This document shows positions 8,384-32,141 of a stretch of 32,141 nucleotides of DNA, in pieces; within the stretch, counting starts at the first letter, position 1; each line of letters opens with the position of its first letter. The translations under genes and the position numbers were made by a program. The notes under the pieces were generated by a model, which was not told the DNA's origin, searched no databases, and saw only the letters and a program-made list of their open reading frames with translations. Origin of the DNA: Chloroflexota bacterium (GTDB taxonomy: Bacteria; Chloroflexota; Anaerolineae; DUEN01); NCBI GenBank assembly GCA_013152435.1, contig JAADGJ010000025.1:1-32141 (forward strand), given 5' to 3'.

Positions 8384-8695
8384 AGAGCGTGTCTGAGAAA
8401 TGCCGTTATCCCCATGCTATGGGGAGGCCCGGATGGGCTCTGCCCATCCGGAGAAAGCCCTTCTTCTGCCTTCGACCCACCCGACCTCGGCCCGGGTCCT
8501 TCGGAAAAGGCGGAGAAAGGCAGGCGCAAGCCAGAAAAGTGGGTTTCTCGTGGAGGGGAGGTCCCCTCCACACCTCTCCCTGAGGAGCTGGTAACTGTGG
8601 GAGCCCCTCCGGGAAAAGTCCTTCTTCTGCCTTCGACCCACCCGGCCTCGGCCTGGATCCTTTGGAAAGGGCCGAGAAAGGCAGGCGCAGGTCAG
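8384..8695 (+). repeat. Structured dispersed repeat, copy A (one long copy plus partial tandem copy)
   Basis: The copy begins with AGAGCGTGTCTGAG (8384-8397), identical to the left end of copy B at 13553. It continues through the family's GC-rich hairpins, including a perfect 10-bp stem GTGGAGGGGA/TCCCCTCCAC (8550-8559 with 8562-8571), to GGAGCTGGTAACTG at about 8600. The right terminal repeat is missing. From about 8601 a second partial copy restarts at GAGCCCCTCCGGGAAAAG and runs to about 8695. The left end is itself palindromic: CTCAGA/TCTGAG nested in CGGCATTTC/GAAATGCCG (8372-8380 with 8397-8405). There is no credible ORF. The stretch 8356-8757 holds this repeat and no gene. Confidence 0.75.
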
Positions 8696-8757
8696 ATCTT
8701 ACGGGCCCTGGAGGGAAGAAGGCTCTCTTGCTCGGCGCTGGCCGCGCGTCTTCGATA

Positions 8758-13050: not shown

Positions 13051-13552
13051 AGTCTTCTCCTTGGGCTAAGGGTCGGCGGCAGATGTCATCGCGTCCGCAC
13101 CAGGGGGAACGTCTCTTCGCTCTGGGGAGGGAAGATGCTCACCTGGAGGGCAAGCGGGAAGGGCGTTGTGGAAGGTGTTTGCTGGAGGATTTGTTTAGGC
13201 GGGCGTCGACTCAAGGCGCAGAGCCTGAGTCCCTAAAGCCGACCGGGAAGGTGCTCCGTCCGCGATCGTCCCAGGCAGAAGAGTGCTCAAATGCACTGCA
13301 ATGCAGCCGACATGGGGGAGGGCGGAAACCGCCTGGTCGAATGCATTATCAGTTTCCACAATTGCATGAAAATGCGATCGAAGACTGTAGCGAGCATTCC
13401 CATTTCCCGCCCTGTCCCTTGGGGAAAGGCGGGAGAGGGCTTCGCTCCCGGTTTCGGGCTCAGTGGCTTGAGCAGCCTTCAAGCGTACTCGGTTGCACAG
13501 CCCGAGGAGCGTCGTCCTTTGCTGTCTCAAAGGGAAGCTGGGGGCGTCTCTC
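13051..13552. other. Gene-free stretch upstream of the repeat B
   Basis: A plus-strand open frame here (13083-13565) has no family signature, no ribosome binding site and a composition like non-coding GC-rich DNA, so it is not annotated. A short dyad CCCGCC/GGCGGG lies at about 13408-13433. Nothing else was recognised. Confidence 0.5.
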
Positions 13553-13770
13553 AGAGCGTGTCTGAGGAATGCCATTGCTTTTGCTATGGGGAGCCCTCCG
13601 GAAAAAGCCCTTCTTCCGCCTTTGACCTGCCCGGCCTCGGCCTGGGCCCTTCGGGAAGGGCCGAGAAAGGCAGGTGCGGGCCGGAAAGGAGGGGTTTCCG
13701 TGGAGGAGACCTCCCCTCCACACCTCCCCCTGTGGAGCTGGTAGCTGAGGAAGCCCCTCAGACACGCTCT
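13553..13770 (+). repeat. Structured dispersed repeat, copy B (complete, with terminal inverted repeats)
   Basis: A 218-bp element bounded by perfect 15-bp terminal inverted repeats: AGAGCGTGTCTGAGG (13553-13567) and CCTCAGACACGCTCT (13756-13770). Inside are nested stems: CTCGGCC with GGCCGAG, GCCCTTC with GAAGGGC, and GTGGAGG with CCTCCAC. No protein is encoded and no target-site duplication is evident at the flanks. The size, inverted ends and dispersed copies resemble a MITE. The right end coincides with the stop codon of the neighbouring iron-sulphur gene. Confidence 0.8.
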
Positions 13771-14852
13771 TACAGGATGTCGGACAGGGAGATGCCGCGG
13801 TTTTGGGCTCGTCGAACCATCCACTCCTGGATGTTCGTCGGGAGCGGCGGGATCTCACTCTCGGGTCGACGTTCCAGATGAAGCGTGCCGGTAGGGCAGA
13901 CGAGGGTGCACTGGCCGCAGCCCACGCAGCGGGCGTAGTCCACGACACATATCCCCTCGGGGACGGAGAGCGCCCCGAACTGACAGCGCTCGACGCAGTC
14001 GCCGCATCCCGCGCATATTTCGTCGTCCACGACCGCGTGGAAGGCGGAGTGGGCGACGGCCGTGGGGATGCCGAACTCGGCCACGCCTCGCATGATCCCA
14101 CAACAGCAGGTGCAGCAGTTGCAGATGTAGAAGTGCCCCTCCCGATGGTTGGCGGTGGAGTGGATCAACCCCGCCTCCGCGGCCTCCTGCAGGATCCGTA
14201 ACGCCTCTTCCTTCGTGATGGGGCGGGGCATCTGGCTGTGATCGAAGGCGCCCTCGATCGGCGCGAAGACCAGGCAGTTTTCGGTGGGGCGGTCGCAGCC
14301 CTTGCCGATGAGCCGCTGCTGGACGCGGCAGATGCATTCGGCCACGCCCCATGATTTGGCCGCCTCCAACATCCGGGTGGCCTGCTCATAGGGAAAGATC
14401 TCCAGATCGAAGGAGATCGCCTCGCCGACCGGGATCACGCGGTGGAGGGGAGGATCGGCCTGGATGATGCTGCCGCCTCGGGTCTCCTGATAGTACTGCT
14501 CGAAGAGCTCGGCCAGCTCCTCATCCATGCGGGGCAGTTGCGTCTCGTAGAAGCCGATCACGAAGGGCATCAGCGCGAAGGAGAGATGGCCCTGGTCTTT
14601 TGTGGCACGGATCAGCTTTTTGCGAGCCATCCCTTTGAGCACACGGCGGGCTACATGGGGATCCACCCCCGCCCGGGCGGCGATGTCGGCGGCCGGCTCG
14701 TAGGTCAGGCGCATCACGGCCGCCAGGGCTGCTTCCTCCGGGGTGAAGATCTTGGCCAGCAGCCGGAGCTCTACGCCGCTCTCGGTGGGAGAGAAGCCGT
14801 TGGGAATGGTGTCCAATCTTTGAGCCAGCTTACGGTACACGTTCTCATCCAT
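13770..14852 (-). CDS. Winged-helix / multi-cluster 4Fe-4S ferredoxin-like protein
   Basis: 360 residues from the ATG at 14852, which follows AGGAG; the longer upstream frame has no support. Residues about 35-90 look like a winged-helix DNA-binding-like domain. Cysteine groups follow: C173-x-C175...C186...C193; a Cys-rich patch CNCCTCCCG (244-252); and two classic 4Fe-4S motifs, C280-x2-C283-x2-C286-x3-C290 and C309-x2-C312-x2-C315-x3-C319. The C-terminus is thus a dicluster ferredoxin. Together this suggests electron transfer tied to a sensing or substrate domain. The family is seen in anaerobes but I cannot name its reaction. It is downstream (82 bp) of another Fe-S gene. The stop codon TAA uses the last base of repeat B. 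Confidence 0.75.
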   Translation of the reverse strand: MDENVYRKLAQRLDTIPNGFSPTESGVELRLLAKIFTPEEAALAAVMRLTYEPAADIAARAGVDPHVARRVLKGMARKKLIRATKDQGHLSFALMPFVIGFYETQLPRMDEELAELFEQYYQETRGGSIIQADPPLHRVIPVGEAISFDLEIFPYEQATRMLEAAKSWGVAECICRVQQRLIGKGCDRPTENCLVFAPIEGAFDHSQMPRPITKEEALRILQEAAEAGLIHSTANHREGHFYICNCCTCCCGIMRGVAEFGIPTAVAHSAFHAVVDDEICAGCGDCVERCQFGALSVPEGICVVDYARCVGCGQCTLVCPTGTLHLERRPESEIPPLPTNIQEWMVRRAQNRGISLSDIL

Positions 14853-14934
14853 CACCGTTCCTCCTGATGCGGAGACTGTGGGAGAGATGCGGGTGTGGGA
14901 TGGAGAACGGCGTCGGGGCGCCTTCTCTCCCAAT

Positions 14935-15474
14935 TTATAGCGCCGGGCGTTTCGTGGCGAGGAGGGTTTCCAGGCGGGATCGCCGATCCTCGAGGCTCGT
15001 CTCCTCATGGAGCGGCGTGCAGCGCTCCAGTTGTGCCTGGCCCGCTGCCAGCCGGAGCGCGAAGCTGAAACAGGTCTCCTCGCCGCACGCCTTGCAGTTC
15101 GTCCGGGGAAGCCATTGGTAGATCTCCAACGGCTGCAGTCGTGGGTGTGTGCTCGTGTCCGGCTCCAGCTGATCTCGCTTCGCCCAGGTCCGGTTGACCA
15201 GGTCCACCAGGCCTTTCACCACCTGATCCGCCTCCTCCCGGCTCTCAACGTGGTCCACGGCGATCCGGTGGGGCCAGAATCCGATGTTGCGCCCCTCGTG
15301 GCGCCAGGACAGCGCAGGCCCTTCCGGCAGGTAGGTCGCCCTCGACAGGATGGCGTTGAGGTAAGGGAGGACCGGGCTGATATCCACGTCAAGGTGGGCT
15401 ATGACCTCATACTCGAAATGTTCCATACTGTGCGTGGAGATCCGGACCTCGAGCTCGTAGGATTCGATGAGCAT
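14935..15474 (-). CDS. Small protein with C-terminal four-Cys 4Fe-4S domain
   Basis: 179 residues from the ATG at 15474; a longer start at 15510 lacks a better ribosome binding site. The N-terminal 110 residues are strand/helix mixed without a recognised family. The C-terminus contains WLPRTNCKACGEETCFSFAL with C127, C130, C135 and C152 further on, matching the Fe-S (PF04060-like) domain of corrinoid/Fe-S protein large subunits and RnfB. It probably carries one 4Fe-4S cluster and passes electrons to, or shares a complex with, the ferredoxin-like protein encoded just downstream. No signal peptide or membrane segment is seen. Confidence 0.7.
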   Translation of the reverse strand: MLIESYELEVRISTHSMEHFEYEVIAHLDVDISPVLPYLNAILSRATYLPEGPALSWRHEGRNIGFWPHRIAVDHVESREEADQVVKGLVDLVNRTWAKRDQLEPDTSTHPRLQPLEIYQWLPRTNCKACGEETCFSFALRLAAGQAQLERCTPLHEETSLEDRRSRLETLLATKRPAL

Positions 15475-15520: not shown

Positions 15521-15589
15521 TATTCGCATCAACTGAACAGCATGGGCGAGGCCCCCGTCTGTCGCTTTTTCCTTCCACGGGCGGTCGCA

Positions 15590-15700
15590 CCTGAAAGGGG
15601 AGGTGCGGAGGGGAAGCCCCTCCGCAGGAAAACTCTTTTCCTCGCCTTTCACCTGCCTTTTTGGGGCTTTGGCCGGTGGCCTCCGGCCCCACGGGGCAGG
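15590..15700 (-). repeat. Structured dispersed repeat, diverged copy E
   Basis: Read on the minus strand, the block keeps the family order: CCTGCC, a GC hairpin, AAAGGCAGGTG, GGAAAAGAG, TTTTCC, then a perfect 9-bp stem and CACCTCCCC-like sequence. The stem here is GCGGAGGGG/CCCCTCCGC (15605-15613 with 15617-15625), while copies A, B and D have GTGGAGG-type arms with CCTCCAC. The T-A to C-G change is therefore matched on both sides. Terminal repeats are not visible. The rest of 15521-15950 holds further fragments such as GGAGGG/CCCTCC at about 15899-15918, and no gene. Confidence 0.55.
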
Positions 15701-15980
15701 TGAGGGGCTGATAATAGGATGCTTCAGAGGGGCGGTAGCCCCTCCGAGCCACCCCAGAGGTGCGGGGCCACGCTTCCGTGTGTTGGGGCATGGCCGTTTG
15801 CAGTATATCAGAGGGGCTGCATGGGGGCAAGGCGTTGAGGGCTCCGTTGGCTTAAGCGGGGCCGCTTGGAGGCAAGCTCTTGCATTCTCTGAGTGGCTTG
15901 GAGGGCGGTCCCTCCACACCTGTTTCGGGGATGCGGGGCGCGCTCTCATCCAAAAAGTGTAATATGATTAATTGGTGATA

Positions 15981-22034: not shown

Positions 22035-22576
22035 CACAGCTCCCTCCCAGCATGTCCGTCTTGAAAGCGGTATGTGAACGCCCGAAATGAGGGCACGGCG
22101 CCGCGCTCCATGCGCGTCAACGGAACGGCGTAGCGGCTTCACCTGACGCCAATGCCTTACCGGAAACCGAGTTCTTCAGCATCTCTGAGAATGTGTCTGA
22201 AAAACACACCACGAAGACACCAAGAAGGGCATGAAAAGGAGTATATCGAGGCTGCTTCACCTCCCCCTGTGGAGCTGGTAGCTGAGGAAGACCCTCAGAC
22301 ACCTTACCGGTGAATTTCAGGCACGCTCTGAGGCCCGGCAACGGCTTGACGGCCATGGCGATTTGCCTGGTAAAACGAATTGCACCATCTTGTGCTGTTG
22401 TGTGGTCATCCTACACAAGAAAAGGTGTTTCGTCAATCTTACCGACGGGGGAGGTGAGCGCTTCGATGCCCCCGACGCGATACCGTCTTTTCTGTTTCGC
22501 CTCCGCCCCTTCTGGCCCGATCCAGGTGGACAGGACCGGGCGGAGCGGGGGGAGGGCTGAACCCGCGTACGTGTGG
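22035..22576. other. Gene-free region with repeat fragments
   Basis: No gene is supported between the RHH-PIN gene and the helicase. It contains the degenerate repeat copy C, a dyad TTGTGT/ACACAA (22398-22403 with 22413-22418), and the helicase promoter at its end. Confidence 0.5.
22150..22329 (+). repeat. Structured dispersed repeat, copy C (decayed)
   Basis: 22258-22302 is 44 of 45 bases identical to 13721-13765 of copy B. The right end then continues CTTACCGGTGAATTTCAG and GCACGCTCT (22321-22329), a longer terminus shared with copy D (minus). The left part keeps only CTGAGAATGTGTCTGAA-type sequence (about 22185-22201) and most of the GC-rich centre is lost. Confidence 0.65.
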
Positions 22577-31921: not shown

Positions 31922-32141
31922 AGTGCGTGTCTGAAGATTTACCGGCAAGATGTCTGAGGGGGCTCCCTCAACGACCAGCTCCACAGGGGGAGGTGTGGAG
32001 GGGGCCTCCCCTCCACGGAAATCCCACTTTTCCGGCCTGTACCTGCCTCTCTCGGCCCTTCCCGAAGGACCCAGGCCGAGGCCAGGCAGGTCGAGGGCAA
32101 AAGAAGGGCTTTTTCCGGAGAGGCGGAGCCCCTCCGGGCTT
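31922..32141 (-). repeat. Structured dispersed repeat, copy D (minus strand, cut by window end)
   Basis: On the minus strand the block is highly similar to copy B: GACCTGCC, GGCCTCGGCCTGGG, AAGGGCCGAG, GGCAGGT, GGAAAAG, TTTCCGTGGAGGGG, CCCCTCCACACCTCCCCC and TGTGGAGCTGGT. The right end is extended: after CCTCAGACA comes TCTTGCCGGTAAATCTTCAG and then ACACGCACTT, as in copy C. The left terminal repeat, if any, is outside the window. It sits directly upstream of the family-2 glycosidase, next to its ribosome binding site. No gene is in 31906-32141. Confidence 0.75.

Follow-up and report, generated by a model that had tools for sequence, protein, structure and literature searches.

A high-copy, apparently orphan IS5/IS1031-type MITE family in a Chloroflexota genome

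A repeat with inverted ends and no gene of its own can be read as a mobile element or as a conserved structure, and the first-pass annotation of the window (the whole 32,141-nucleotide stretch of Chloroflexota DNA that was analysed) offered both readings for the sequence at 13553-13770. The question raised by this locus is which of the two applies and, if the repeat is mobile, which enzyme moved it. The analysis described here makes it very probable that the repeat is an IS5-family, IS1031-type MITE that was moved in trans by an IS5-type transposase and is now apparently orphaned.

The 15-bp inverted ends described at 13553-13567 and 13756-13770 exist exactly as claimed, and the absence of an ORF between them is also borne out, only mechanical ORFs and no plausible gene being found inside the window element. 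The 15th, outermost A/T pair of these ends (13553 and 13770) is nevertheless flanking target. Flank analysis of the copies assigns position 13553 to the last base of a TCA triplet on the left (13551-13553, a TNA target), and the same analysis with a sister-species comparison assigns 13770 to the first base of a TTA triplet on the right (13770-13772, minus strand), which is the stop codon (TAA) of a 4Fe-4S protein gene (13770-15008, minus strand). The element proper is a 216-bp MITE copy at 13554-13769, in minus orientation relative to the family consensus (profile match of 216 bits). Its terminal inverted repeats, placed by inverted-end comparison and alignment among copies, are perfect over 14 bp (GAGCGTGTCTGAGG; left, 13554-13567, plus; right, 13756-13769, minus). 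The family consensus is 255 bp at full length and, as in a MITE, is short and contains no transposase gene; in an alignment of 63 copies, full-length members have the two ends GAGCGTGTCTGAAAA and GAGTGTGTCTGAGAA, and in the consensus the end motif recurs (GTGTCTGAGGG) ~25 bp inward of the left end. This alignment traces the perfect inverted repeat of the window copy to a 25-bp deletion, since the 25 bp between the two end motifs are missing from it and from a few others. The window copy additionally lacks a 24-bp inner hairpin, and the element is close to palindromic over its whole length.

Within the window, 4 occurrences of the end motif GAGCGTGTCTGAGGAA (≤3 mismatches) compare with 0.26 expected. 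Further copies had been listed at 8384, 22150 and 31922, and family sequence is present at all three places, but these copies are unequal. The first is a truncated copy (8385-8606) followed in tandem by a second partial copy (8602-8719), with only the outer end at 8385 kept (8385-8720 overall, minus strand; profile matches). The start at 22150 does not hold, as the actual element is a 140-bp chimera at 22189-22328 (minus strand; profile match and flanks), in which the left part comes from a different, same-ended MITE family, only the right ~72 bp come from the 255-bp family, and the TGA/TGA target duplication is perfect. The third copy (31923-32141, plus strand; profile match) is opposite in orientation to the window copy and is cut off by the contig end. 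A sequence distantly related to the hairpin core but lacking terminal repeats (15570-15759, plus strand; profile match), absent from the earlier list, belongs to a repeat family of its own that is also found in the sister species. This second family, seen at 15540-15800 of the window, has a core of ~70% identity and no GAGCGTGTCTGA ends, and is represented by at least 6 partial copies in sampled stretches of this genome (84-97%) and ~10 matches in the sister species and members of the taxonomic family.

Searches of the genome of the window (4.97 Mb, a draft of 149 contigs that is 95.8% complete) found many dispersed copies, as is expected of a MITE family. A genome search scored 42 matches (the window copy and 41 further ones) from 323 candidates. 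The 12-bp end motif GAGCGTGTCTGA occurs 127 times versus 0 for the reversed control, which, with the 63-copy alignment, documents the conserved terminal inverted repeats of a MITE. A 22-bp core gave 187 matches (≤3 mismatches), and the 31 matches of its reversed control are taken to be near-palindromic sequence of the element itself. A profile built from the copies made 165 non-overlapping matches in 123 genome stretches, which were chosen by end or core matches, so the proportions given below apply to that sample. With no fewer than ~187 core matches, the family is put at roughly 200 copies or more, and by an estimate from copy number and length it makes up roughly 1% of the genome. The first-pass annotation had named findings that would count against its proposal, namely a genome-wide search returning only these copies with no conserved inverted ends, or a location inside a known IS; what was found instead is many copies, conserved ends and a sequence outside any IS. 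Several contigs end inside element copies (L011, L034, L094, L105, L116 and the window itself, at 32141), and the repeat seems to break the assembly.

Among 60 genomes searched (this one and 59 relatives), a strong full-length match was found only in the other genome of the same genus, that of the sister species (83%), and a directed search of it recovered this 1 copy only. Copies in the genome of the window diverge from their consensus by a median of 7.7%. Their tree is star-like (terminal branches of 4.34, internal branches of 0.59), and identity between sampled copies reaches 96.7% at most; the burst is therefore old. The pattern fits one main burst in the lineage of the window's species, followed by decay.

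Target duplications, which had been proposed as a check, were found. Identical 3-bp TNA flanks border 46 of 81 sampled two-ended copies, nearly all identical triplets being TNA, whereas 2000 shuffles gave 12.7 identical flanks on average and never more than 24. Identity over 4 bp was seen in 1 copy and 4-bp repeats are not enriched, so the duplication has the fixed length that is expected of a MITE. C precedes the duplication in 62/81 copies and G follows it in 57/81, which makes CTNAG the preferred target. A perfect duplication is missing in the other 35 two-ended copies, which mutation or recombination can explain.

Individual loci add to this evidence. One copy (C76) is nested in a member of a different MITE family that has these ends too ('GGAACCACTAAGGCACTAAGACCCTAAGA...') and is flanked by TAA and CAA; three sister-species copies of that family have a single TAA or CAA at the nested-insertion point. 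Same-ended MITEs with the interior type 'GGAACCACCAAGGCACTAAGACCC...CTTAGTGTCTTAGTGGCTTCGTGGTG', the family that was the target into which the studied family inserted, were observed in the sister species (L195, L196) and in the genome of the window (L118, L174:1308-1720). At the window locus, sister-species homology (89%) stops at the element edge, and the 4Fe-4S protein gene of the sister species ends in CTTAG with the element absent; the orthologous spacer provides a base-precise empty site on one side of the window copy only. Gene order to the left of this copy differs between the two species, placing it at a synteny breakpoint, and its flanking triplets are mismatched (TCA versus TTA); recombination between copies would fit both features. 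Another copy (C12:121988) is absent in the sister species, where the spacer is too divergent for base-by-base alignment.

None of the 135 sampled elements lies inside a predicted gene, as defined by a purpose-written codon-usage caller that cannot run an ORF through an element, so a disrupted gene would appear truncated and not element-containing. Element edges pile up at gene ends, and a preference for stop codons was considered and rejected: once the TNA sites of the spacers concerned serve as the background, the pile-up vanishes (7 insertions fall exactly in stop codons, versus 4.96 expected). Orientation relative to tandem neighbour genes has no clear preference (44 versus 35).

This placement, together with the hairpin, bears on whether the repeat is a conserved structured RNA or regulatory element, in which selection would act on the hairpin (e.g. 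for stabilising mRNA or terminating transcripts) and the ends would be incidental. The window copy folds as RNA at -119.5 kcal/mol and is far more stable than shuffles (z of -5.5 as RNA and -4.7 as DNA), and every sampled copy is intergenic, both of which would suit such a function. However, the consensus fold over 63 copies has 38 pairs, any double change is seen in just 4 of them, variation is mostly one-sided and the covariation term is -1.08 kcal/mol, so the compensatory base-pair changes of a structured RNA family were not found in this alignment. Negligible covariation and one-sided variation indicate that the fold is a property of the palindrome and not evidence of selection on RNA. In addition, there is no Rfam match in the window, orientation has no clear preference, the distribution is nearly species-restricted, and the TNA duplications show insertion. 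On the Rfam and covariation results the RNA or regulatory candidate was rejected, and the conserved structured repeat that had been suggested is highly improbable.

A weaker form of this idea is that the element arose as a selfish MITE and that some copies were later co-opted, as hairpins that protect the 3' ends of transcripts or as recombination sites that reshape the genome. Some copies do sit exactly in stop codons, the window copy with its mismatched triplets lies at a synteny breakpoint, and chimeric and nested copies are present. Against this, the stop-codon insertions are close to the TNA-site expectation, covariation is absent and a single copy next to a breakpoint may be there by chance, so co-option of this kind appears improbable.

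Finding a transposase with matching ends had been another proposed check, and it succeeded in other taxa but not in the genome of the window. MITEs usually, though not by strict requirement, share their genome with an autonomous element that has matching ends; none was found in this incomplete assembly (149-contig draft, 95.8% complete). The genome has two DDE transposase loci with PF01609, one also with PF13340, and their ends differ from those of the MITE; the IS5-like L039 (ends GAGCCTGTTATGCACTTT) and L040 (ends CTCGACTTTGTAC) were both rejected as partners. With other ends on both of these transposases, the MITE looks orphaned. PF01609 loci of the relatives likewise yielded no partner IS with matching ends.

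A scan of genome contigs for CTNAGAGCGTGTCTGAAAA returned at least 117 stretches, and the listed matches span Verrucomicrobia, Acidobacteria, Gamma- and Deltaproteobacteria, Chloroflexota, Bacillota, Leptospiraceae, Methanosarcina and others. Among the matches listed, 76 occurrences had room for a partner end, and 48 distinct ones had it within 600 bp (0/76 in the control); 30 of the partnered ends have identical triplets, versus 8.7 expected and a maximum of 17. These exact ends bound unrelated MITEs of 70-500 bp in several phyla among the matches listed, with interiors that, by eye, differ from one another and from the studied family. They also bound IS5 elements. An element of 1476 bp in a Deltaproteobacteria MAG (L341:69-1544) has terminal inverted repeats identical to those of the MITE over 15 bp (GAGCGTGTCTGAAAA ends), a TCA/TCA duplication and a split transposase with PF13340 and PF01609 (NF033580). 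Near-identical ends, with 1-2 mismatches, are found on IS5 elements of Methanosarcina (L334; 884 bp, one 251-aa frame, NCBIfam IS5) and Robinsoniella (L335; 879 bp, flanks CTA/TAG). The L341 interval also holds extra sequence with a 131-aa frame. The genome of L341 has, in addition, a 156-bp MITE (L282) with the same ends and TAA/TAA flanks.

The match over 15 bp to autonomous IS5 elements could mean that the repeat is a simple internal-deletion derivative of one autonomous IS, which lost the coding part and kept IS sequence as its remaining interior. This is unlikely. The interior forms a hairpin with a core related to the end-less repeat family at 15570-15759 and contains no transposase-like frame. 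Unrelated interiors with the same ends are found both in the sister species and beyond it, a pattern consistent with the capture of foreign interiors. The non-autonomous mobile element of the first-pass annotation is, in contrast, backed by the target duplications, the nested insertion with its comparison sites, the inverted ends, the copy number, the near-absence from the sister species and the autonomous IS5 elements with matching ends in other taxa.

The IS1031 subgroup of IS5 is characterised by exclusive 3-bp TNA repeats (PMC12016507). The MITE shares with it the exclusive 3-bp TNA duplication and short inverted ends starting with GA; an IS5-type transposase (DUF4096 plus DDE_Tnp_1) between identical or, in L334 and L335, near-identical ends is found in other genomes only. 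The MITE differs in being ~255 bp long and encoding nothing, and the published end of ISLrh (GAACCTGTCTAGTATCT) differs from its end. We infer that an IS5 transposase with such ends moved the family and that the matching transposase was lost from, or is missing in, the genome of the window. A DUF4096 plus DDE_Tnp_1 transposase supplied in trans would bind the GAGCGTGTCTGA ends, cut out or copy the ~255-bp element and insert it at CTNAG sites, with TNA duplicated. Copies would persist only between genes, a burst would occur in the lineage of the window's species before activity ended, and copies would later diverge, lose internal parts, recombine with same-ended MITEs and become nested.

By description, the element resembles Chunjie of Geobacter uraniireducens (178-235 bp) and QMITE2 of Coxiella (~190 bp, with a predicted hairpin) in size, intergenic location, hairpin and truncated copies, but its copy number is higher; its G+C-rich interior also departs from prokaryotic MITEs, which are typically AT-rich (PMC10969869). 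It is likewise comparable, by description, to ERIC, an intergenic palindromic repeat with up to 711 copies in Photorhabdus (PMC10969869), in being a high-copy palindrome between genes, and unlike ERIC it has identified ends, a TNA duplication and IS5 relatives. The end sequence had no match in literature searched without most subscription journals and ISfinder, so the family may be catalogued elsewhere. The evidence supports well an element of an ordinary kind that forms a new MITE family of IS5/IS1031 type, high in copy number and apparently orphan. This family accounts for the repeat as well as for several breaks in the assembly and some chimeric loci. It offers a clear test case for orphan MITEs, as a one-copy sister species brackets its burst and other taxa, though not the genome of the window, reveal which type of transposase matches.

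The part most worth following is the sharing of exact ends by unrelated MITEs across phyla, since the same 15-bp ends on such elements make mobilisation across lineages testable. We tentatively propose, as a possibility somewhat short of even, that unrelated interiors in several phyla repeatedly adopted the IS1031-type GAGCGTGTCTGAAAA ends and the CTNAG target, and that one shared pool of otherwise unrelated MITEs can thereby be served by IS5 transposases that move between lineages. Several MITEs of 160 bp and shorter with the same ends were also observed in Lachnospiraceae (L224, L247, L255, L265, L288). Their flanks, such as TTA/TAG or TTA/TGG, are like the CTA/TAG around the IS5 element L335, and from these sequences they possibly have a 2-bp TA duplication.
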